The position numbers were made by a program, and so were the translations under genes. Source: Haliscomenobacteraceae bacterium (lineage in GTDB: Bacteria > Bacteroidota > Bacteroidia > Chitinophagales > Saprospiraceae). Taken from it: a stretch of DNA of 64,000 nucleotides. Below, in pieces: positions 7,480 through 58,866 of this stretch. Location: assembly GCA_947501115.1 (NCBI GenBank), contig CANMVX010000001.1:186001-250000 (forward strand), read 5' to 3'. Numbering within the stretch: position 1 is the stretch's first letter; the number at the start of each line of letters is the position of its first letter. The notes beneath the pieces are model-generated. The model was not told the origin of the DNA. It saw nothing but the letters and a program-made list of their open reading frames with translations, and searched no databases.

Positions 7480-9633
7480 ATGGGACAACAGATTCCAATC
7501 TCATCGTCCTTTAATTTACCGGATGGTCGACAAGTAACCCTAGAAACTGGAAAATTAGCTTCCTTAGCTGATGGTTCTGTTGTAGTTCGTATCGGTGATA
7601 CGATGTTATTTGCTACCGTTGTTTCCTCTAAGGAAGCTAAAGCTGGGCAAGATTTCTTTCCCTTATCGGTTGATTATCAGGAAAAATTTGCTTCCGCCGG
7701 TAGAATACCTGGGAACTTTTTTCGTCGTGAAACCAAAATTTCAGATTATGAAGTGCTCATTTCACGCTTAGTGGATAGAGCTATTCGTCCTCTCTTTCCA
7801 GACGGTTATATGAATGAAACACAAGTTATCATTCATCAGATTTCTGGAGATAAGGAAAATTTACCCGACGCTTATGCTGCATTGGCAGCTTCAGCAGCTT
7901 TAGCTGTCTCAGATATAAATTTCCCCGATTTGATTTCTGAAGTCCGTGTGGCCAGAATCAACGGTGTCTTTCATGTTAATCCTTTGCGCGATGCGCTAAA
8001 AGAGGCAGATATGGACTTTATCGTTGCCGCAACGATGGATAACGTAATGATGGTTGAAGGTGAAGCTAAGGAATGTTCTGAAGTAGATTTGATTAACGCA
8101 ATTAAATTAGCACACGAAGCTATTAAAGTTCAAATCCTTGCTCAACAAGAGCTGGCAAATAAGGTAGGGGAGAAAGCCCTGAATAAAAGAGTACTGGCGG
8201 ATATTCCTCAAAACGAGGAAGTAAAAAATCTTGTTGCTCAAAAGTGTACAGATAAAATAGCTGCTATCGCACGCGCTGCCTCTGATAAGGCAACACGTAA
8301 AGCTGCGTTGGATAGTGTTAAGAAGGAATTAAAGGAAAATTTACTCGCAGAAATGGGTGAGGAGTGGTTTACTCAAAATCAATCTTTCGTTTCTTCTTAC
8401 TATGATAAGGTCAAAAAAGAAACCATTAGAGGAATTGTTCTTAACGAAAAGGTTAGACTAGATGGTCGTGGCCTAAAGGATATTCGTTCAATTTGGTGTG
8501 AAGTTGATTATTTACCTTCTACCCATGGTTCTGCTATTTTTACCAGAGGTGAAACGCAGTCTCTGACTTCCCTTACGTTGGGTACTAAGTCCGATGAAAT
8601 GATGGTGGATATTGCCTACGCTCTTGGATTCGAAAAATTTATCCTTCATTATAATTTCCCTGGTTATTCAGTAGGTGAAGTAAAACCAAACAGAGGTCCG
8701 GGTAGAAGGGAAGTAGGTCATGCAAATTTGGCTCAACGCTCCCTTAGACAAGTGATGCCTGATGTTTTTCCCTATACCCTTCGCATTGTTTCTGATATTT
8801 TAGAGTCAAATGGTTCTTCTTCCATGGCCACTGTTTGCGCTGGTACTTTAGCGCTTATGGATGCAGGTGTTCAGATTAAGGCGCCAGTGTCAGGTATTGC
8901 GATGGGTCTGATTACAGATGGTTCGAATTATGCCATTTTATCAGATATTCTCGGTGATGAAGATGCTTTGGGTGATATGGACTTTAAAGTGACTGGTACC
9001 GATAAAGGTATTACTGCTTGTCAAATGGACATTAAGGTCGATGGTCTTCCTTATGAAGTCATGGAAAATGCACTAATTCAAGCAAAAGAAGGTCGCATTC
9101 ATATACTTGGGGAAATGCTTAAAACCATAGCTGCTCCAAGGGAAGATTATAAGCCTCATGCGCCTAGAATTGTTGAACTAACGATTGAAAAAGGTTTTAT
9201 TGGCGCCGTAATTGGACCTGGTGGTAAGATCATTCAGGAGATTCAAGAGCAAACGGGTACGCATATTTCTATTACCGAAGTAGGTGATAAAGGTATCGTA
9301 GCTGTGTCAAGTTCTGACAAAGCAGGTATTGAACTTGCCTTAGATAGAATACGCCGTATTACCTTTATGCCCGCAGAAGGTGATATTTTCGTCGGTGTAG
9401 TGAAAACTGTCATGCCTTATGGCGCTTTTGTTGACTTCCATGGTAAAAGTGGTCTTCTTCATGTATCTGAAATTTCGCATAGCCGTATTGAAAATGTCGA
9501 GGATGTGCTGAAAGAAGGGGATGAAATCAAAATTCAAATTGTTGAAATTGATAAGAAAACAGGCAAAATGAGATTATCAAGAAAATCTATTATGCCTCGT
9601 CCAAATAGAAATCAAGAGGGAGATTCTAATTAA
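7480..9633 (+). CDS. pnp: Polynucleotide phosphorylase
   Basis: The protein has 717 residues in the normal PNPase order. RNase PH domain 1 comes first (EKFASAGRIPGNFFRRE, RLVDRAIRPLFPDGY), then the helical linker, then RNase PH domain 2 (HYNFPGYSVGEVKPNRGPGR, SNGSSSMATVCAGTLAL, GDMDFKVTGTDKGITA). A KH domain (FIGAVIGPGGKIIQEI) and an S1 domain (GVVKTVMPYGAFVDFHGKSG) close the protein. It degrades RNA 3' to 5' using phosphate and takes part in the degradosome and small-RNA metabolism. It lies downstream of rpsO and is followed by a clear terminator. Confidence 0.98.
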   Translation: MGQQIPISSSFNLPDGRQVTLETGKLASLADGSVVVRIGDTMLFATVVSSKEAKAGQDFFPLSVDYQEKFASAGRIPGNFFRRETKISDYEVLISRLVDRAIRPLFPDGYMNETQVIIHQISGDKENLPDAYAALAASAALAVSDINFPDLISEVRVARINGVFHVNPLRDALKEADMDFIVAATMDNVMMVEGEAKECSEVDLINAIKLAHEAIKVQILAQQELANKVGEKALNKRVLADIPQNEEVKNLVAQKCTDKIAAIARAASDKATRKAALDSVKKELKENLLAEMGEEWFTQNQSFVSSYYDKVKKETIRGIVLNEKVRLDGRGLKDIRSIWCEVDYLPSTHGSAIFTRGETQSLTSLTLGTKSDEMMVDIAYALGFEKFILHYNFPGYSVGEVKPNRGPGRREVGHANLAQRSLRQVMPDVFPYTLRIVSDILESNGSSSMATVCAGTLALMDAGVQIKAPVSGIAMGLITDGSNYAILSDILGDEDALGDMDFKVTGTDKGITACQMDIKVDGLPYEVMENALIQAKEGRIHILGEMLKTIAAPREDYKPHAPRIVELTIEKGFIGAVIGPGGKIIQEIQEQTGTHISITEVGDKGIVAVSSSDKAGIELALDRIRRITFMPAEGDIFVGVVKTVMPYGAFVDFHGKSGLLHVSEISHSRIENVEDVLKEGDEIKIQIVEIDKKTGKMRLSRKSIMPRPNRNQEGDSN

Positions 9634-35299: not shown

Positions 35300-36787
35300 T
35301 TACTTAAAACTAGCTTCATTTTGCCTTAACTCATTTTTAAAGTGACTTAGGTTCCCCATTTCTTTATGAATTAAAGCGAGTTCTATGCCAGCTACTTCTG
35401 CAAAATCCTGTAATGTCTCCGTGCTTATATTTTGACTGTACACCGTATGGTGAGCTCCACCTGCCAGTAACCAGGCAGCACAAGCAGTTTCCATATCAGG
35501 TTGAGGTTTCCATAAAACCCTGGCAACAGGAAGTTTAGGTAAAGTATGAAGGGGCGTTACGGCTTCTACTTCATTAACTAAAAGACGGAATCTATGACCA
35601 AGATCTATCAAAGAGGCATTCAGCGCTTTTCCTCCCTCGACATTGAAAACCAGTCTGACTGGATCAGATTTTCCACCAATACCTAAGGGATGAATTTCAC
35701 AGGAAGGTTTTTCGTGTGCAATGCTGGGACAAATTTCCAACATGTGTGCCCCTAATACCATTTCATTGTTGGGCTCAAAATGATAAGTATAATCTTCCAT
35801 GAAGGAATTCCCACCTGCTAATCCAATACTCATGGTTTTCATTGCTCTTAACAAGGCTGCCGTTTTCCAATCTCCTTCAGCACCAAATCCAAATCCTTTT
35901 TGCATTAAACGCTGAACGGAAATGCCCGGCAATTGCGTCAATCCATGTAAATCCTCAAAAGTGGTGGTAAATCCCTTATATTGTCCCTTTGTTAAAAAAT
36001 TTGTTAATCCCAACTCTATTTTTGCAGCCTCTCTTAATGAATTATAGTGAGTGCCGTTTATTGATAATGAGGATGTTAAATGATATTCTTGATTATAAAC
36101 CTCACATAAATCATCTATCTCCGATGCTTTAACCTGGTCGATTTCTGAAACCAAATCACCAATTCCATGGGTGTTTACTTGAAAACCAAATGTTATCTGA
36201 GCCTCCACTTTGTCTCCTTCAGTAACAGCCACTTGCCTCATATTATCACCAAAACGGACAAATTTGGCGTTCTGAAGGTCATGCCAACCTAATATTGCTC
36301 TGGTCCAATCATTTATTTGACTGGATACGCGTTCATTCTGCCAATGTCCAACAATTACCTTTCGGGGAATTTTCATTCGTGACAGGATATATCCAAATTC
36401 ACGGTCACCATGGGCAGATTGATTCAGATTCATAAAATCCATGTCAATGTCATTCCATGGGATATCGCGATTGAATTGCGTATGAAGGTGACATAAAGGC
36501 TTTTGTAAAATCTTCAAGCCGTTAATCCACATTTTTGAAGGCGAAAACGTATGCATCCAGGTGATAATGCCAATACAATCAGTGTTATAATTGGCATCGA
36601 GGATGAGTTGGTAGATTTCTTCAGATGACTTTAATACAGGTTTGAAAACCAGCTGAATGGGTAGGTTGTTTTTAAGAAGATGCACAATGTGCTGTGCATT
36701 ATCTGCTACTTTATTAAGTGTTTCCTGCCCATATAAATGTTGGCTTCCCGTTAGGAACCAAATTTCAAGTTTTTTAAAAGAATCCAT
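35300..36787 (-). CDS. araA: L-arabinose isomerase
   Basis: Start at 36787 ([20 protein letters not shown]) is ten bases after the araD stop. An in-frame start at 36841 would overlap araD and is rejected. The 495 residues contain the AraA motifs [51 protein letters not shown] and the metal-ligand region [19 protein letters not shown], plus [13 protein letters not shown]. It converts L-arabinose to L-ribulose. It is the last gene of the operon araB-araD-araA. Confidence 0.97.
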
Positions 36788-36797
36788 TATCAATGAT

Positions 36798-37499
36798 TTA
36801 TTGTTGTCCATAATAGGCATCAGGACCATGCTTCCTTTCAAAATGCTTTTTAATCAAAGCATCTTTAAGCAATGGCGCTTGCGGATTTATCTGTTCTGTT
36901 AACCAGGCCATTCGGGCAATCTCTTCCAAAACGGCAGCATTATAAAGGGCTTTTTGGCTATTTTTTCCCCAGGTGAATGGAGCATGATTTCCAAGGAGGA
37001 TCATTTCAATTTCTTGATAATCTAATTTTTTTTCAAGGAAATGTTGAATAATCTGTTGTCCTGTTTCCATTTCATAATCGCCTTGTATCATTTCATCGTT
37101 CATAGGGGGAGCGCAAGGCACTGCCTCTGTTAAATGATCGGCATGGGTTGTTCCATAAATAGGAATTTCTCGTTGGGCTTGTGCCCAGGCCGTTGCGTAC
37201 GTTGAATGAGTATGGACAATACTGTTTATCTGGCCCCAGTTTTTATAAAGGAAGGCGTGGGTTTTTGTATCTGAAGATGGTCTGAGTTTTCCATCTATAA
37301 CGCGACCATCAAAATCGACAATAATCATCTTTTGTGGGGTGAGTTCACTATACGGAACACCGCTTGGTTTTATGGCAAAAACGTTGTTTTTATGGTCTGC
37401 CACGCTTACATTTCCAAAGGTAAACAGAACCAAACCTAAAGCAGGTAATTGCATGTTGGCGTGATAACATTCCTTTTTTAAAGATTTAAAATGTTTCAT
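36798..37499 (-). CDS. araD: L-ribulose-5-phosphate 4-epimerase
   Basis: The 233 residues carry AraD signatures: [16 protein letters not shown], the zinc-binding [21 protein letters not shown] with its two His, then GTTHADHL, and a third His in NHAPFTWG. It interconverts L-ribulose 5-phosphate and D-xylulose 5-phosphate, feeding the pentose phosphate pathway. It starts three bases after the araB stop and is followed by araA after ten bases. Confidence 0.97.
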
Positions 37500-37502
37500 T
37501 GG

Positions 37503-39170
37503 CTACATTAGATTTTTTTCAAGGTAGTTACCCAGCGATAGGTATTTTTGGTACCTCCTCTGATACAAATCTACTTTTTCCTGATTGGGATAATATGTTT
37601 TTTCAAATCCAGCACCCATAGCTTGCATAGCCTGTTCAACCTGAGAATAGATTCCAGCGGCTGTTGCAGCGAACATGGCAGCGCCAAGGGCACAAGTTTG
37701 TTCACTTTTATGTACTTTGACTGGCATATTTAACACGTCAGCTAACATTTGCATAATAAATGGCGATTTTTTTGCCACGCCACCTAATCCTATGATTCCT
37801 TTCACTGGAATTCCTTCCTGAATAAATCGTTCCACTATCGCTTTTGATCCAAAACAAGTGGCTTCTACTAAGGCTCTAAATACGTGGGGTGCTTCAGTTC
37901 CTAAATTCAAATGGGAAATGGCACCTTCTAGTCGTTGTTCTGCATCTGGTGTTCTTCGACCATTTAGCCAGTCCACAGCTAAGGTTGATGTTATTTCAAG
38001 GGGTAATTCGTCGGCTTGTTGAGAAAGTTTATACAATAAATTTGAATCTAAGGAATGTATTAATTCTTTCTTTTGATCTTCAGATAGCATCGCAGATTCT
38101 TCAATAATTTGCATGGTCGGCTTAAGTAGCAGGTTTTTAAACCAGGCGTAAACATCACCAAAGGCCGATTGGCCTGCTTCTAAACCATATAAGCCGGGTA
38201 AAATAGATCCTTTTACCTGTCCACATATTCCTTTAACGCATTTATTATTCAAGTCTTTAGCTGAAACCACCATCATATCGCAGGTGGATGTGCCCATTAC
38301 TTTACTTAGATAAAAAGGTTCAATTTGACCGCCAACGGCACCAACATGTGCATCAAAAGCGCCAATGCCAATGGTCACATCAAGAGGTAATCCTAATTTT
38401 TCGGACCATTCAGGCGCTATTTTTCCTGCAACACTATCTGTGGAATATATATTTTGATGCAATTTTTCTGTAAAGCCATCCAGCAAAGCATCAATAGCAG
38501 CAAAATAATCATTGGAAGGATACCCATCAAAAGATTCTGACCATAATGCTTTATGACCAGCTGCACAAATACCTCGTTTTAAATCTTTAAGGCTTTTTCC
38601 ACCTGTTAAAACAAAGGGTATCCAGTCACAATGTTCCACAAAGCTGGCGACGTTAGACCTTATTTTTTCATCTGTTTTTAAAATATGAAGCAATTTCGCC
38701 CAAAACCATTCGGAGGAATATATCCCTCCAACATATTGCAAATAATCGGTATTACTTTGTCGATTATAATTATTGATTGCCTCCGCTTCCTCAATACTGG
38801 TATGATCTTTCCATAAAATAAACATGGCGTTTGGATTATCAGCAAACTCGGGAAGCAAGGAAAGGGGAGTGCCAGATTCATCAACGGCAACAGGCGTTGA
38901 ACCTGTTGTATCTATTGAAATGCCTTTTATATTTTGAATTATTTCCTCACTAAGTCCTTGAAGACAAGCTTTTATGGTGTAGGTTAAACCTTCCAGATAA
39001 TCCAGCGGATGTTGTCGAAACTGATTCAAACCAGGATGACAAAAAAGTTGATTTTTCCAACGCGGGTAATAAAAAACGGAGGTGGCTATTTCCTCTCCAT
39101 TCAGCGCATTTACCAGTAGTGAACGAACTGAATCAGTCCCAAAATCTACACCGAAAACATATTTATTCAT
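37503..39170 (-). CDS. araB: Ribulokinase
   Basis: The 555 residues belong to the FGGY kinases: FGVDFGTDSVRSLLVNALNG (phosphate 1 motif), GISIDTTGSTPVAVDE, TIGIGAFDAHVGAVGGQ, LEAGQSAFGDVYAWF and GIIGLGGVAKKSPFIMQMLAD (FGGY C-domain), then EQTCALGAAMFAATAAGIY. The length and this pattern fit ribulokinase rather than xylulokinase. It phosphorylates L-ribulose and is the first gene of araB-araD-araA. A long inverted repeat lies 95-140 bases upstream of its start. Confidence 0.95.
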   Translation of the reverse strand: MNKYVFGVDFGTDSVRSLLVNALNGEEIATSVFYYPRWKNQLFCHPGLNQFRQHPLDYLEGLTYTIKACLQGLSEEIIQNIKGISIDTTGSTPVAVDESGTPLSLLPEFADNPNAMFILWKDHTSIEEAEAINNYNRQSNTDYLQYVGGIYSSEWFWAKLLHILKTDEKIRSNVASFVEHCDWIPFVLTGGKSLKDLKRGICAAGHKALWSESFDGYPSNDYFAAIDALLDGFTEKLHQNIYSTDSVAGKIAPEWSEKLGLPLDVTIGIGAFDAHVGAVGGQIEPFYLSKVMGTSTCDMMVVSAKDLNNKCVKGICGQVKGSILPGLYGLEAGQSAFGDVYAWFKNLLLKPTMQIIEESAMLSEDQKKELIHSLDSNLLYKLSQQADELPLEITSTLAVDWLNGRRTPDAEQRLEGAISHLNLGTEAPHVFRALVEATCFGSKAIVERFIQEGIPVKGIIGLGGVAKKSPFIMQMLADVLNMPVKVHKSEQTCALGAAMFAATAAGIYSQVEQAMQAMGAGFEKTYYPNQEKVDLYQRRYQKYLSLGNYLEKNLM

Positions 39171-53427: not shown

Positions 53428-53469
53428 TAAAGTGTTTCGGGGAATTTGGTCGTTGACCTGTTAATTATA

Positions 53470-56205
53470 ATGCAAAGTAAACAAAAATATTACTTTTATC
53501 TAACTGCCATATTAGGAATTTTGTTTTTCCTGATAGGGTCAGCTCCTTTGTTAAGTCAAAAAATAGCCTTAGATTCTTTCCCTGGCGAAGGTTCTATGCA
53601 GGATACCTCCGTAGTCCAAAGGCAATATGTGCGTTTTTCTAAAGATTCATTGAGTGCGCCTATTGATGCGTCCTGCAAAGATTCAATGATCTTAGATAAC
53701 AAAAATAAAAAGCTCTATCTATATGGTGAGGCAGTAGTAAATTATGAAAAAGTTGAATTGAAGGCAGGTTTTATAGAACTTGACTGGGATAATAACATCA
53801 TTTTAGCAAAGGGCACAGGGACGAAAGAAAGTAATCCTGCCTTCAAGGAAGGGGAGCAAGAAATATCAGCTTTTGAACTTCGGTATAATTTTAAAACTCA
53901 AAAAGGTAAAGTTTTTCAAAGTACTTCCCAACAAAATGATATTGTAATTCATTCGGAACAAGCGAAATTTATCCGTACTGCTGGAACAGATTCAACTCAA
54001 AACGATGTCCTTTATAGTACGAATTCCATTTTTACCACTTGTACAGCCGATCATCCGCATTTTGGCATCAGAAGTACTAAACAAAAAATAATTCCTAATA
54101 AATTAATTATTGTGGGTCCTTCCCGATTAGAAATAATGGATATTCCAACTCCCATTTGGCTTCCTTTTGGTTTTTTTCCTATCAATCCGCAAAATAAATC
54201 TTCTACTGGTTTACTTTTTCCAAGAGATTATGAATATTCACCTGAGTGGGGTTATGGTTTAAGAGACATAGGATGGTTTTTCCCTATCAATGATTATTTA
54301 AATCTGGCGCTTAGGGGAAATATTTATTTTAGAGGTACCTGGGGGGTTAGTGCATCTTCTGATTACAGAAAAAGATATAAATATTCGGGTTCGCTGAATC
54401 TTGGTTTTGATTCCAGAAAAACTGAAAATCTTCAAACAGGTATATTTTCTCCTCAAAATTCAGTGCAAATCAGATGGTCACACAGACAAGAGAGTGGTGC
54501 GCACCCAACGAATCGTTTTGGCGGTAGTGTGAATATTCAAACCAATGGATTTCAAAACAGGGTTTTCAACGATGCTGCATCTGTTTTGCAGACGCAGTTA
54601 AATTCTAATATGTCATTTGATAAAAACTATACAGATAAACCTTACAATTGGTCTGTTTCTTTTAATCACTCTCAGAATCTGTTAAACAAGGAAATAACTA
54701 TTAATTTTCCTGATCTTAGATTTCAAACGCAATCCATAAATCCCTTTAAAAGGAAAATTGCATCAGGTGCTGAAAAATGGTACGAAGCTATCGTTATGAG
54801 GTATCGAAATGAGGTTAGAAATAGTTTTGCCGCTACAGATACTACTTTGTTTTCCACAAAAACCCTTAGCGATGCAAAATTTGGTGTAAATCAAGCTGTG
54901 GAGGCAAGTACCTCATTTAAAATTTTACGGTTTTTTAATCTTAATCCATCAGCTAACTATCGGGAAGTTTGGCAAATGCAACAATTAAGGAAAGATTTTG
55001 ATCCAACGCCCACCATACGAAGAGATACGATTTATAATGAGGCCAAAACTTCTTTTCAAGTTATTTCAGATACCACTCAATATGGTCGTGTAAATACAGA
55101 TACAATACCAGGGTTTGCTTCTTATCGTACATTTGATATGGGGTTTGGTCTTAATACAAGACTTTTTAGCACATTGCAATTTAAAAGTGGTTTTTTAAGA
55201 GGTCTGAGACACGAAGTGAGACCAACGATATCCTTTAATTATTCTCCCGACTATATTAAGCCTTTTTACGACACCATAAATACTGATACACGATATGCCG
55301 ACAGATATCAGGTATATACTCCGTTTGAACAATCTATTTACGGTTCGCCTCCACAATCGGGTAAGCAAATGGCTATAGGATACTCCTTGAATAATATTTT
55401 ACTAGCTAAAATTGCACCCAAAAAGGATTCTACACTTAAAACGGTGAACCTTATTGATAATCTCGTGATAACGGGGAATTATAATTTTGCTGCTGATTCC
55501 CTTCGTTGGAGTCCTGTTTTTGTTAGTACCACAGCACGTTTTTTCAAGGGTGCTACCACGGCATCTTTTTCCATGATTTATGATCCTTACATGAAAAATG
55601 CCAGGAATGAGAGAATTAATACCTTTTGGTGGAAGGAAACGGGAAGACCTTTGCGTTTAGATCAGGCTAATTTGCGTATTTCGTCTAATCTTACGGTAGC
55701 AAAAATACGTGCTCTTTTTCAAGGGAAACCGGAGGAGGTAGTCACAGATGTCAGAAATTCAAGACCGGATCAAAATAGCCCTTCACTTATTGGGAATCAA
55801 ACGAATAGAAGTAATAAACAGACTATTGACAATGCTACGGAAGAAGATTTTTTAAGTTTATTTGAAAATTTTTCAATCTCCCATAATATTGATTTTACCT
55901 GGAGGGAGGAAAATGGAGCCATTCGATTTTTAGTGGAGACCAATTCTATAAATTGTAGGGGAGATATTAAATTAACCCCCAACTGGGCGATTAGTGTGGG
56001 TAATTTTGGTTATGATTTTGTTCGCGAAGGTTTGTCTTACCCATCTTTTGGATTTATACGCGAATTACATTGTTGGGATATGTCTTTTAACTGGCAGCCA
56101 CAAAGAGGTACCTACAGCTTTATGCTAAGGGTTAAACCAGGTACCCTCGATTTCATAAAAATACCTTACCAGCGAAATAACGGAGATACGCTTAGAGCCT
56201 TTTAG
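53470..56205 (+). CDS. LPS assembly outer-membrane protein LptD (Bacteroidota type)
   Basis: Start at 53470 (MQSKQKYYFYLTAILGILFF) begins a signal peptide. Eight codons upstream have no homology. The 911 residues comprise an N-terminal beta-jellyroll (OstA/LptA-like, SMILDNKNKKLYLYGEAVVN ... LKAGFIELDWDNNIILAKG) and a large barrel (LFPRDYEYSPEWGYGLRDIG, ...) ending in MLRVKPGTLDFIKIPYQRNN. It threads lipopolysaccharide into the outer leaflet. The amidase gene is divergent, 42 bases away. The stop TAG overlaps the stop of the helicase gene by four bases. Confidence 0.9.
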   Translation: MQSKQKYYFYLTAILGILFFLIGSAPLLSQKIALDSFPGEGSMQDTSVVQRQYVRFSKDSLSAPIDASCKDSMILDNKNKKLYLYGEAVVNYEKVELKAGFIELDWDNNIILAKGTGTKESNPAFKEGEQEISAFELRYNFKTQKGKVFQSTSQQNDIVIHSEQAKFIRTAGTDSTQNDVLYSTNSIFTTCTADHPHFGIRSTKQKIIPNKLIIVGPSRLEIMDIPTPIWLPFGFFPINPQNKSSTGLLFPRDYEYSPEWGYGLRDIGWFFPINDYLNLALRGNIYFRGTWGVSASSDYRKRYKYSGSLNLGFDSRKTENLQTGIFSPQNSVQIRWSHRQESGAHPTNRFGGSVNIQTNGFQNRVFNDAASVLQTQLNSNMSFDKNYTDKPYNWSVSFNHSQNLLNKEITINFPDLRFQTQSINPFKRKIASGAEKWYEAIVMRYRNEVRNSFAATDTTLFSTKTLSDAKFGVNQAVEASTSFKILRFFNLNPSANYREVWQMQQLRKDFDPTPTIRRDTIYNEAKTSFQVISDTTQYGRVNTDTIPGFASYRTFDMGFGLNTRLFSTLQFKSGFLRGLRHEVRPTISFNYSPDYIKPFYDTINTDTRYADRYQVYTPFEQSIYGSPPQSGKQMAIGYSLNNILLAKIAPKKDSTLKTVNLIDNLVITGNYNFAADSLRWSPVFVSTTARFFKGATTASFSMIYDPYMKNARNERINTFWWKETGRPLRLDQANLRISSNLTVAKIRALFQGKPEEVVTDVRNSRPDQNSPSLIGNQTNRSNKQTIDNATEEDFLSLFENFSISHNIDFTWREENGAIRFLVETNSINCRGDIKLTPNWAISVGNFGYDFVREGLSYPSFGFIRELHCWDMSFNWQPQRGTYSFMLRVKPGTLDFIKIPYQRNNGDTLRAF

Positions 56206-58343
56206 TCAATTAATTTATAAGGATATGTTTTTTGTAAAATACTTGATTTAGATCCATTGCCAGAGATGTAGAGAAGCATTTTAGCACGCGTCATTGCAAC
56301 ATATAATAGCGCTTTATCTCTTTTTTCAGCTTCTTTTTTTTCTTCATCTGATGGATATAGACGAGGTTTCAGAAAAGTGTTAGCATTTAATCCAACTAAA
56401 AAGATAACTTTAAATTCAAGACCTTTGAGACTATGGAAAGTGGAGGTACTCAAATGTTCGGGTAAACTTAGCTCATTATTCTTCTCTATCTTTCTGACTT
56501 TATAACCACCATTATGAAAGTGACTATGAAATTCTTGAATATCTCCATTTCTTTTGGCTGCAATGCAAATATCTTCCGGCAAGTATAATCCTGTATCTAT
56601 CAATTCCTTTATTTTATTTTCTACAAATTGTATTTCATCTATCAAGTTATTAAAGTGTATGTAACTAGGTTCAGGTCCATAACTTAAAGAGGTATAACCT
56701 TGTATTTTCTCAATGGAGTTACTAAAATCAGAAAAAGTTTCTTCACCGAGCGCTTTTACAGCATCCTTCCTGATCTCCTCCGTTGTTCTATAATTTCGCA
56801 ATAATCTTCTTGATTTTTTTCCTCTGGTTTCAATTCTAAGCGCTAAAAAGTTTATATTTCTGTCATATACTTTTTGCAGTGGGTCACCAACCATAAATAA
56901 ATCATTTATACCTGGTTTAACAATACTTCTTAAAAAACGAACTTCAATATTTGATAAATCTTGTAATTCATCCAGAATAATATGTGCATAAGGTTTAGTT
57001 GATTTGTCTTTGTAATGGGTAATTAACTCATAAAAAAGTTCATCCCCCTCGAGTTTAAAAGTTTTTTTCTTCTCTTCTCTGTATTCCAAATGCTTATGCC
57101 AGAATAGCTCTTTCATTTCTTTTGAAATTCTGGTCTCTCTTCCTGTTCTTTGTATGACAAGATAATCGGCCAAGGATTCTATTTGATGGAAAAGGATCAC
57201 TTTTTGGTATTCATCTTCAGCAAATTCTGGAGTAATCTGGGTGCCTTTCAATATTTTCTCCCAAATTTTCAGTTGTCTTGTTTTTTTATTAGCATAGCTG
57301 TTTTCTTCTTCCTTTTTGAAACCCTCTTCGATTTGATTTTTCAGGTGATTTATTTTTGAAGCCAGATGGTGAGCAACATAGTGAATGGTCATAATATCGT
57401 AAATACCTTTATTACTTAAATTTAATTGATTTACTTGTGCGCTTAAATTACTAGCCAGAGCATTAGTGTAGGTGCAAAAAAGTAATCTTTTTCCCTCTGG
57501 AAGTCCATTCTTTATTAGGTAGGAGAATCGGTGTAAAGCGGCCACTGTTTTTCCTGTTCCAGCCCCTCCGGTAATTTTAACAGGTCCGTTAAAATTAGCT
57601 TCCACCAATTTTGTTTGTTCAGGGTGAAGGAAAAACTGCCAGTTATTTTCACCAAGTAGAAATTGAATGAGTAGAGGATCCTCTGTATTTTGGATAAAAT
57701 TTTGTTTGTTATTAGGAGATTTTAATTGAATTTCTGTATCCTCAGAAATTGATTTACCTTCCTTCACTTGCTCTAGTAACTCTCTTTTGTCAGAACCATT
57801 GAAAATGAGACTAATTTTTTCATAAGCCTCATCGGGTAGGTTGTTCTTAACTTCCAAAAGCTTGTCCAGGCTTATTATGCTAATTACTTTTTCTACTTCT
57901 GATTCAGGCACACCTAAATTTAATAAGTCATCAATAGTTAAATTGTATGGATGATGAAAAGGAATTATTTTATACGATGAAGGTTCAGTGGTTGGTTCAT
58001 TTATCTCAATGGGCTCATAGAGTTGCATGCTATGAATGAAGGCATTCCAAATCAATTTTTTATTCTTCGCCCAGGCATGTGCATCGTCATGTTTATCAAC
58101 CCATAGCATAAAATAATTATTGCCAGTGGGAGGAAACCCAACGATGGCTCTATAATCATCATCAATTCTAACGGTTCTTAAATTTCTATCTTTAAATGAA
58201 ATTATTTTTTCAAAATCTATGGCATGACTTTTAGGATTTTCCTTGAACTTTGGAAAAAATGCAGTAACCTTTTTCTTGATTTCATTTGGTAGTCTTTCTG
58301 TTGCCTTATGAAAATCTTTTCCTACATAAATGATTGGATTCAT
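56202..58343 (-). CDS. UvrD-type helicase with RelE-like N-terminal domain
   Basis: The protein has 713 residues. Residues 1-~95 look like a RelE/ParE toxin fold: NPIIYVGKDFHKATERLPNE, a helix pair, then NLRTVRIDDDYRAIVGFPPT and FMLWVDKHDDAHAWAK. After a linker (~100-240) comes a superfamily 1 helicase. Its motifs are Walker A GGAGTGKT (259-266), IILDELQDLSNIEV (Walker B), FMVGDPLQKVYDR (motif III), NYRTTEEIR (motif IV), STFHSLKGLEFKVIFLVGL (motif V) and LLYVAMTRAKMLLYISG (motif VI). The fusion is rarely described. It may recruit the helicase to ribosome- or DNA-bound targets, or the toxin part may be a regulatory module. No antitoxin gene is next to it. The convergent lptD stop overlaps it by four bases. 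Confidence 0.88.
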   Translation of the reverse strand: MNPIIYVGKDFHKATERLPNEIKKKVTAFFPKFKENPKSHAIDFEKIISFKDRNLRTVRIDDDYRAIVGFPPTGNNYFMLWVDKHDDAHAWAKNKKLIWNAFIHSMQLYEPIEINEPTTEPSSYKIIPFHHPYNLTIDDLLNLGVPESEVEKVISIISLDKLLEVKNNLPDEAYEKISLIFNGSDKRELLEQVKEGKSISEDTEIQLKSPNNKQNFIQNTEDPLLIQFLLGENNWQFFLHPEQTKLVEANFNGPVKITGGAGTGKTVAALHRFSYLIKNGLPEGKRLLFCTYTNALASNLSAQVNQLNLSNKGIYDIMTIHYVAHHLASKINHLKNQIEEGFKKEEENSYANKKTRQLKIWEKILKGTQITPEFAEDEYQKVILFHQIESLADYLVIQRTGRETRISKEMKELFWHKHLEYREEKKKTFKLEGDELFYELITHYKDKSTKPYAHIILDELQDLSNIEVRFLRSIVKPGINDLFMVGDPLQKVYDRNINFLALRIETRGKKSRRLLRNYRTTEEIRKDAVKALGEETFSDFSNSIEKIQGYTSLSYGPEPSYIHFNNLIDEIQFVENKIKELIDTGLYLPEDICIAAKRNGDIQEFHSHFHNGGYKVRKIEKNNELSLPEHLSTSTFHSLKGLEFKVIFLVGLNANTFLKPRLYPSDEEKKEAEKRDKALLYVAMTRAKMLLYISGNGSKSSILQKTYPYKLID

Positions 58344-58452: not shown

Positions 58453-58455
58453 CAT

Positions 58456-58821
58456 TGGAAATTGCCCTGTCGCGGCTCTTTATTGAGATGAGGAAAGTCC
58501 GGACAACGCAGTGCGCCACACCATCTAACGGATGGGCATGTTTTAACATGACAGATAGGGTCGCAGAAAATTACCGCCGGCTTGCCGGTAAGGGTGAAAA
58601 CGGGAGGTAAGAGCTCCCGCATCGGTTGGGTAACCAGTCAGTGGGATAAACCTTGTGGGTTGAAATGCCATGTATATCCTGGGTTCCTTCGGGAGGTGGA
58701 GTTGCACGCTCTACTGGAAACGGTCAGGAGGGGTAGGCAGATTGAGCTTTGGTGTGAACCTAAGCCTAGATAAATGACAGGGAACCTTTCGGGGTTACAG
58801 AATCCGGCTTATAGATTTCCA
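58456..58821 (+). ncRNA. rnpB: RNase P RNA (bacterial type A)
   Basis: The ~366-base RNA shows the conserved core: GAGGAAAGTCCGGACAAC early (58489-58508) and ACAGAATCCGGCTTATAGAT at the 3' end. The P1 stem pairs TGGAAAT at the start with ATTTCCA at the end. It removes the 5' leader of tRNA precursors. Protein ORFs in this stretch are artefacts of the RNA gene. Confidence 0.96.
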
Positions 58822-58826
58822 TTTTT

Positions 58827-58866
58827 TCCGGTATTGTTTTTGACCAAAACAATACCGGATTTTTTT
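58827..58866 (+). terminator. Terminator of rnpB
   Basis: TCCGGTATTGTTTT and AAAACAATACCGGA form a 14-base stem around TGACC, followed by TTTTTT. It starts six bases after the RNase P RNA. Confidence 0.85.

Follow-up and report, generated by a model that had tools for sequence, protein, structure and literature searches.

The closest described relative of the gene analysed here is ArmD, a component of the four-gene phage-defence system ARMADA Type II, in which armD follows armABC and depends on them (Bell et al. 2025, PMC12458937). Anti-phage activity of ARMADA has been published for E. coli NCTC 12900, where deletion of any of the four genes abolishes protection and protected cells survive infection. 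Exchange of the Walker A lysine of ArmD (K266A) likewise abolishes protection, and the Walker B exchange D454N costs part of it; the available text of that paper names Walker mutants only and none in the RelE domain, and a word search of it returned no mention of solitary, orphan or stand-alone forms or of Bacteroidota (PMC12458937). Among the literature matches listed, it is the sole description of a RelE-UvrD fusion.

Each half of such a fusion also has studied counterparts. In the toxin YoeB, catalysis depends on Glu46 as general base together with Arg59, Arg65, and His83, Tyr84 is required as well, and His50 of YafQ has been proposed to be able to stand in for Glu46 (PMC3814384). A YoeB has been reported to cut RNA and nick DNA without ribosomes (PMC7878887). 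On the helicase side, GajB of the Gabija system is described in the available text of PMC10681800 as neither unwinding nor binding DNA. A possible further relative is PA1372 of P. aeruginosa PAO1, likewise a UvrD-like helicase, whose inactivation offsets the burden that plasmid pNUK73 puts on its host (PMC4410645, PMC4208098).

The fusion gene and its surroundings

The window, that is, the whole stretch of DNA analysed, comprises 64,000 nucleotides from a Haliscomenobacteraceae bacterium (GCA_947501115.1, contig CANMVX010000001.1, positions 186,001 to 250,000). It carries a RelE-UvrD fusion gene whose parts and neighbours are as follows.

53446..56205, plus strand: lptD-like gene (a candidate name, given by eye), the convergent neighbour, overlapping the fusion stop by 4 bases
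56202..58343, minus strand: RelE-UvrD fusion gene (ArmD-like), 713 aa, from the reading frame and full-length homologues
56205..57638, minus strand: SF1 (UvrD/GajB-like) helicase, residues 236-713, from Pfam, PADLOC, and conserved motifs
56958..56972, minus strand: helicase motif II, DELQD (458-462), from sequence and alignments
57546..57569, minus strand: Walker A, GGAGTGKT (259-266), from sequence and alignments
57639..58013, minus strand: connector (residues 111-235), helical and conserved at about 135-195, from conserved columns and helices in the full model
58014..58343, minus strand: predicted RelE/YoeB/YafQ-fold domain, residues 1-110 (fold matches cover 1-96), from AF2, Foldseek, VIA, profile, and Pfam
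58454..58827, plus strand: rnpB (RNase P RNA), the divergent neighbour (Rfam RF00010, 218.7 bits)

An earlier note, made from the letters of this DNA, had pointed to the open reading frame at 56202-58343. The frame is real, but it lies on the minus strand, running for 713 codons from an ATG at 58343 to a stop at 56202-56204; the plus strand of the same interval has stops throughout and no reading frame. Since the full-length form recurs in five phyla (Bacteroidota, Cyanobacteria, Pseudomonadota, Actinomycetota, and Deinococcota), the fusion is not a chance reading frame. Nor is it unprecedented, for the same architecture has been published as ArmD (PMC12458937). The window protein aligns along its length with an E. 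coli plasmid copy (L025) at about 30% identity; its K265 aligns there with K266, its D458 with D454, its E45 with E48, and its H85 with H88. As K266 and D454 are the numbers that Bell et al. use for ArmD, the numbering also identifies L025 as ArmD. Judged by sequence, the window protein is thus a member of the ArmD family, with an N-terminal RelE-like domain, a GajB-like helicase, and homology from end to end. It does not belong to an ARMADA Type II operon, there being no armA, armB, and armC upstream.

The note had further stated that no antitoxin adjoins the gene, and this is borne out. The start codon is a mere 110 bases away from rnpB and the other end of the frame runs into the convergent gene, so the operon has no space for one, and the pairing that defines type II toxin-antitoxin systems is absent from the window locus. 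Beside the relatives, no recurrent antitoxin candidate was found among same-strand frames of 60-230 aa compared among loci; small neighbours are present at several of them and are mutually unrelated, except for one close pair (L046/L047). The GC content of the fusion gene (0.328) is slightly below that of the window and of the lptD-like gene (both 0.362), a difference that is not decisive. Elsewhere in the window, positions 35300-39170 hold what by eye is an ordinary sugar operon with arabinose isomerase-, ribulose-phosphate epimerase-, and ribulokinase-like genes.

RelE-fold domain, connector, and helicase

The N-terminal ~95 residues had been read as RelE-like. Pfam gives no meaningful RelE-family match for the window N-terminus by itself; among 27 N-termini of the family (L028 left out), HigB-like_toxin is matched by 10 (best 3e-6), ParE_like by 7 (best 0.00086), and YoeB_toxin by 3 (best 0.062), all at E<=1. 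Searched against the PDB, a profile of the family N-terminus has YoeB as its best match (E=0.0063), followed weakly by a Thermus RelE-type toxin (0.096) and an archaeal RelE (0.1). An AF2 model of residues 1-112, built from 21 eligible rows, reached pLDDT 87.4 and pTM 0.80. Its best Foldseek match is 1wmi (E 2.6e-5), and the 19 matches at E<=0.001 are toxins or toxin-antitoxin complexes (RelE, YoeB, YafQ, and others) except 2otr, a conserved hypothetical protein; VIA superposes the model on YafQ with Z 11.0 over 86-87 residues at 2.2-2.4 A. Residues 1-96 are accordingly assigned a predicted RelE/YoeB/YafQ fold of the RelE/ParE superfamily, whose beta-alpha-alpha-beta3 order is followed by a C-terminal element, and the note's reading of this part survives the comparison of structures.

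Four positions of the domain align with catalytic residues of YoeB (counts among 39 members, window included):

58209..58211, minus strand: E45, position of YoeB Glu46, by profile alignment; E 29/39, H 8/39, K 2/39
58167..58169, minus strand: R59, position of YoeB Arg59, by profile alignment; R 38/39
58149..58151, minus strand: R65, position of YoeB Arg65, by profile alignment; R 39/39
58089..58091, minus strand: H85, position of YoeB His83 and, by aligned ranges, of YafQ His87; motif HDxAYxWA; 39/39

Histidine at position 45 occurs in the six rows with restriction-modification (R-M) neighbours, in L046, and in L116, lysine in L028 and L033; the sole exception at R59 is the serine of L116. In a second set, 21 rows drawn from the window, the genus, and viral contigs, position 45 is E in 7 rows and H in 14, and R59 is replaced by Q in one row (L126). 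Over its 112 query columns, the N-terminal alignment has four that are invariant, and three of these fall on the catalytic quartet; with columns taken as independent, and in a test picked post hoc, chance would give this at about 7e-5. By alignment, the base, acid, and arginine positions of the YoeB/YafQ type are kept in the window domain, so that the toxin's catalytic residues, on which the note's reading also depended, have their counterparts here.

Several features count against a nuclease. The residue after H85 is Asp in 36/39 members, the window included, where YoeB has Tyr84, and position 89 is Tyr in 26/39 and His in the window; R59 is lost in L116 and L126, and K stands at position 45 in L028 and L033. 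H85 may moreover be structural, since in the model it starts a helix, and the fold runs on from there as a helix and two strands. It could therefore be argued that the RelE-fold domain is a catalytically silent docking module, binding nucleic acid or protein and aiming the helicase at the ribosome, RNA polymerase, an R-loop, or a partner, with the motor doing all the work. Some RelE/ParE-fold toxins do work by binding, as ParE does on gyrase, and a silent module would fit the poor conservation in the family of the tyrosine that YoeB requires, the extension of the fold past H85, and the want of a recurrent antitoxin candidate among the relatives' small neighbours. The survival of ARMADA-protected cells also speaks for it (PMC12458937). 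We nevertheless hold silent docking, the main rival to a nuclease, to be somewhat unlikely: the retention of R65 and H85 in all 39 members and of R59 in 38, across highly diverged sequences, and a base position that varies between E and H just as YoeB and YafQ differ, would be surprising in a surface that serves for docking only.

Between the two domains, the note had placed a linker of ~150 residues. A connector is indeed present at 111-235, but it is not featureless: in a 28-sequence alignment (L005, L006, and L008 omitted as near copies) G144 is invariant and L140, P146, P170, and G183 are nearly so. Compared with Pfam, the connectors of five members (90-91 aa) gave one chance-level match and no real family. 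A full-length AlphaFold model from 9 eligible sequences was poor (pLDDT 51, with connector helices at about 60-80) and was for that reason discarded as a fold-search query.

Residues 240-694 match UvrD-helicase (E=3.6e-28) and UvrD_C (2.6e-16) in Pfam, and the best PADLOC model for the helicase part is GajB (2.6e-31). K265, D458, E459, Q461, R519, and R686 are each kept in 39/39 members. With Walker A, motif II, and the motif IV/VI arginines in place, the sequence is that of an SF1A UvrD/GajB-like helicase; the "complete" UvrD-type helicase of the note is complete in its motifs, but in size it is a GajB.

Relatives and the solitary genus gene

Matches to the fusion are found in 80 plasmid records, and in 41 of these a single locus spans 80% or more of the query. 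Escherichia accounts for 21 of the 80 records, many of them near copies, and the N-terminal 201 residues by themselves match 28 records. In a sample of the phylum, 12/296 genomes match at E<=1e-30, counting the window's own and one helicase-only match (L021/L048), and in a sample of the family 17/348 match at E<=1e-40, namely 7 of the genus and 10/341 others. Three phage records matched, all of them helicase-only, and a scan of viral contigs with the E. coli query matched one stretch, which is no relative.

The labels given to neighbourhoods come from the annotation of the records and from BLAST against reference neighbours, with no system caller, and cover the 39 rows of a tree that, like the alignments, leaves out L010 (5' end masked) and L048 (RelE part absent). 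Twenty rows adjoin an ArmC-like helicase of ~2,100 aa, which in some of them is split or incomplete; six adjoin a type III-like methyltransferase and a BPTD_3080-type restriction enzyme; one lies in a DISARM-like cluster with DpdE/DrmD- and DrmMI-like genes, and one adjoins BrxL. The remainder are six solitary genus copies, one copy at a contig edge, one without assigned context, L050 and L116 with no recognised defence neighbours, and L046, which has only small upstream genes in common with one type III R-M-like row. Recognised defence-type neighbours are thus present in 28/39 rows, so the defence neighbourhoods in which the note proposed to look for the family do contain it. Its suggestion of a phage-responsive factor fits the family, with many relatives in defence operons and ArmD essential for ARMADA defence, but the window copy itself sits in no defence island.

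Some individual loci are of note in their own right. A 572-aa helicase relative from the same phylum (L048:10466-12184) lacks the RelE domain. The RelE-UvrD gene of L041 is closely preceded by a 69-aa frame (8647-8856) that matches the N-terminal half of the RelE domain encoded there, at 40% over a 50-residue stretch; this truncated duplicate hints at turnover of RelE domains. A Tsukamurella plasmid has a second UvrD-like helicase gene directly after the RelE-UvrD gene (L033:10115-11908). On a Thermus plasmid (L028:27-15149) the gene lies between brxL and a gene for a 1,716-aa DinG/DpdF-like helicase. This BrxL-bearing cluster, which includes vWA and tubulin-like genes farther upstream, is an unusual one. 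In L046 (1154-2753) and L047 (10652-12251) two genes, possibly an accessory pair, precede the RelE-UvrD gene; one encodes 387 aa and looks by eye like an ATPase, and the other, of 148 aa, is 59% identical from one locus to the other.

In the genus, the gene is present in 7/7 genomes and is flanked by rnpB and the lptD-like gene in 6/6 other loci, which by contig coordinates are those of the 6 other genomes. In one of these (L010) rnpB scores low (119 bits) and the 5' end of the fusion is masked; the six genomes with a readable 5' end, the window's included, all have full-length open frames. An attempt to show an ancestral empty site by way of the lptD-like gene failed, as none of 20 other family genomes, from 29 lptD-like loci fetched, has an RNase P RNA within the fetched flanks. 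In the midpoint-rooted tree all six solitary rows fall together (support 100/100) on a long stem, and their sister group (95/85) is made up of 8 Bacteroidota rows, of which 7 are ARMADA.

This kinship, together with the failure to find armABC in the genome, would suit a functionless leftover of a decayed ARMADA operon. Such a leftover is very improbable, given the full-length frames in six genomes and dN/dS values far below 1, by which the selection test disfavours it: the RelE domain has 0.07-0.11 in the 10 genus pairs without L007 and 0.10-0.25 in the 5 pairs with it, where dS is near saturation, and the helicase 0.07-0.26 among genus pairs. Both domains of the solitary gene are under purifying selection. 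A further possibility is that the protein serves in defence together with a set of partners encoded at an unlinked site of the genome, as a split ARMADA-like system, which would agree with the finding that ArmD by itself is not sufficient (PMC12458937). Searches with one query each speak against it: Bacteroidota ArmA and E. coli ArmC gave only 77-119-residue matches and ArmB, run with no positive control, gave nothing, in a genome that is 96.7% complete, so that armABC could have been missed. We judge a split system to be distinctly unlikely.

Presence in every genome of the genus at one site, set against a scattered occurrence elsewhere in the family, and the low dN/dS would also be expected of a housekeeping helicase that maintains the genome, for instance by clearing R-loops or transcription-replication conflicts, its defence role gone. 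We consider this doubtful, though well worth entertaining, in view of the defence-type neighbours of most tree rows and of an exchange in one species that is more like a conflict gene. Compared with the window, the L007 gene has 92 differences in its first 330 bases and 89 in the remaining 1,809 (Fisher 3e-32); the same test, from which L009 was omitted for its different length, gave p 0.002 for L005 (a 2.0-fold excess), 0.22 for L006, and 0.75 for L008. In pairs with L007, dS is 1.0-2.3 in the RelE part versus 0.17-0.36 in the helicase, whose protein is 97% identical to the window's, and dS is 0.39 for the neighbouring lptD-like gene of L007 and the window. The divergent tract runs from ~58430 to ~58000-58060 (in 60-base steps), taking in the RelE domain along with the region upstream of it; a dip at 58000-58060 is seen in other rows as well, and most of rnpB in L007 is 97-99% identical. 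Sequence divergence of this kind is best read as a recombination event in which an unsampled relative supplied L007 with a replacement RelE domain, and the incoming domain (L007:8001-8330) keeps E45, R59, R65, and H85.

Proposed mechanism and comparison with described systems

The fold, the retained residues, the selection on both domains, and the missing antitoxin fit a nuclease under the control in cis of a motor. We give about an even chance to the reading that the window gene is a solitary ArmD relative, a core gene of its genus without armABC, in which a nucleic-acid-sensing motor governs a RelE/YoeB-type nuclease. The helicase would bind and travel along single-stranded or stalled nucleic acid, candidate substrates being replication intermediates of invaders, R-loops, and stalled transcription complexes; an ATP-driven rearrangement would then expose or position the nuclease, which would cut the engaged RNA, or nick DNA, locally. 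The motor would replace the antitoxin as control element, and if it does so in cis, we infer, an antitoxin is not needed. A comparable arrangement is Cami1, where a RelE-fold domain is controlled by a fused CARF domain. Local cutting is favoured over free poisoning of ribosomes because ARMADA-protected cells survive, which by analogy argues against a simple ribosome-poisoning toxin. The inactivity of GajB in DNA binding and unwinding, as given in the available text of PMC10681800, counts against gating by a motor. In the genus, the gated nuclease might act without armABC, as a minimal defence factor or a genome-maintenance enzyme.

The occurrence of the same module beside several types of defence system suggests a general part, and it is enticing to speculate further. 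The gene might then represent a one-gene, antitoxin-free enzyme of immunity or surveillance, with the motor as switch and reader and the RelE/YoeB domain as an exchangeable warhead: a plug-in module for ARMADA, DISARM-like, type III R-M-like, and BrxL-bearing systems that was domesticated in this genus as a core gene beside the RNase P RNA gene and had its RelE domain swapped by recombination in one species. We regard this extended proposal as rather unlikely.

Among described proteins, the toxins YoeB, YafQ, and RelE share with the window domain the predicted fold and the catalytic positions E45, R59, R65, and H85, whereas the window domain has no adjacent antitoxin, is fused to a helicase, does not keep the equivalent of YoeB Tyr84, and carries an extra C-terminal helix and strands. 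Cami1 (CARF-RelE; PDB 8phj, 8phb) resembles it in having a RelE-fold domain within a larger protein, one that matches the window domain in fold; in Cami1, however, the fused partner is a sensor that binds cA4, according to the PDB entry title, and here it is a helicase. GajB, which to our knowledge has no RelE part, is the best PADLOC match of the helicase. It acts with GajA (PMC10681800), in contrast to a gene whose neighbours are rnpB and an lptD-like gene. ArmD has the same join of an N-terminal RelE-like domain to a GajB-like UvrD helicase, and it differs in setting: ArmD sits after armABC, and the window gene stands alone between rnpB and the lptD-like gene, a place that is fixed in the genus. 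Being solitary and conserved and keeping the catalytic positions, the window gene offers a way to study, with one gene instead of the four of ARMADA, how control of a RelE-type nuclease can do without an antitoxin.
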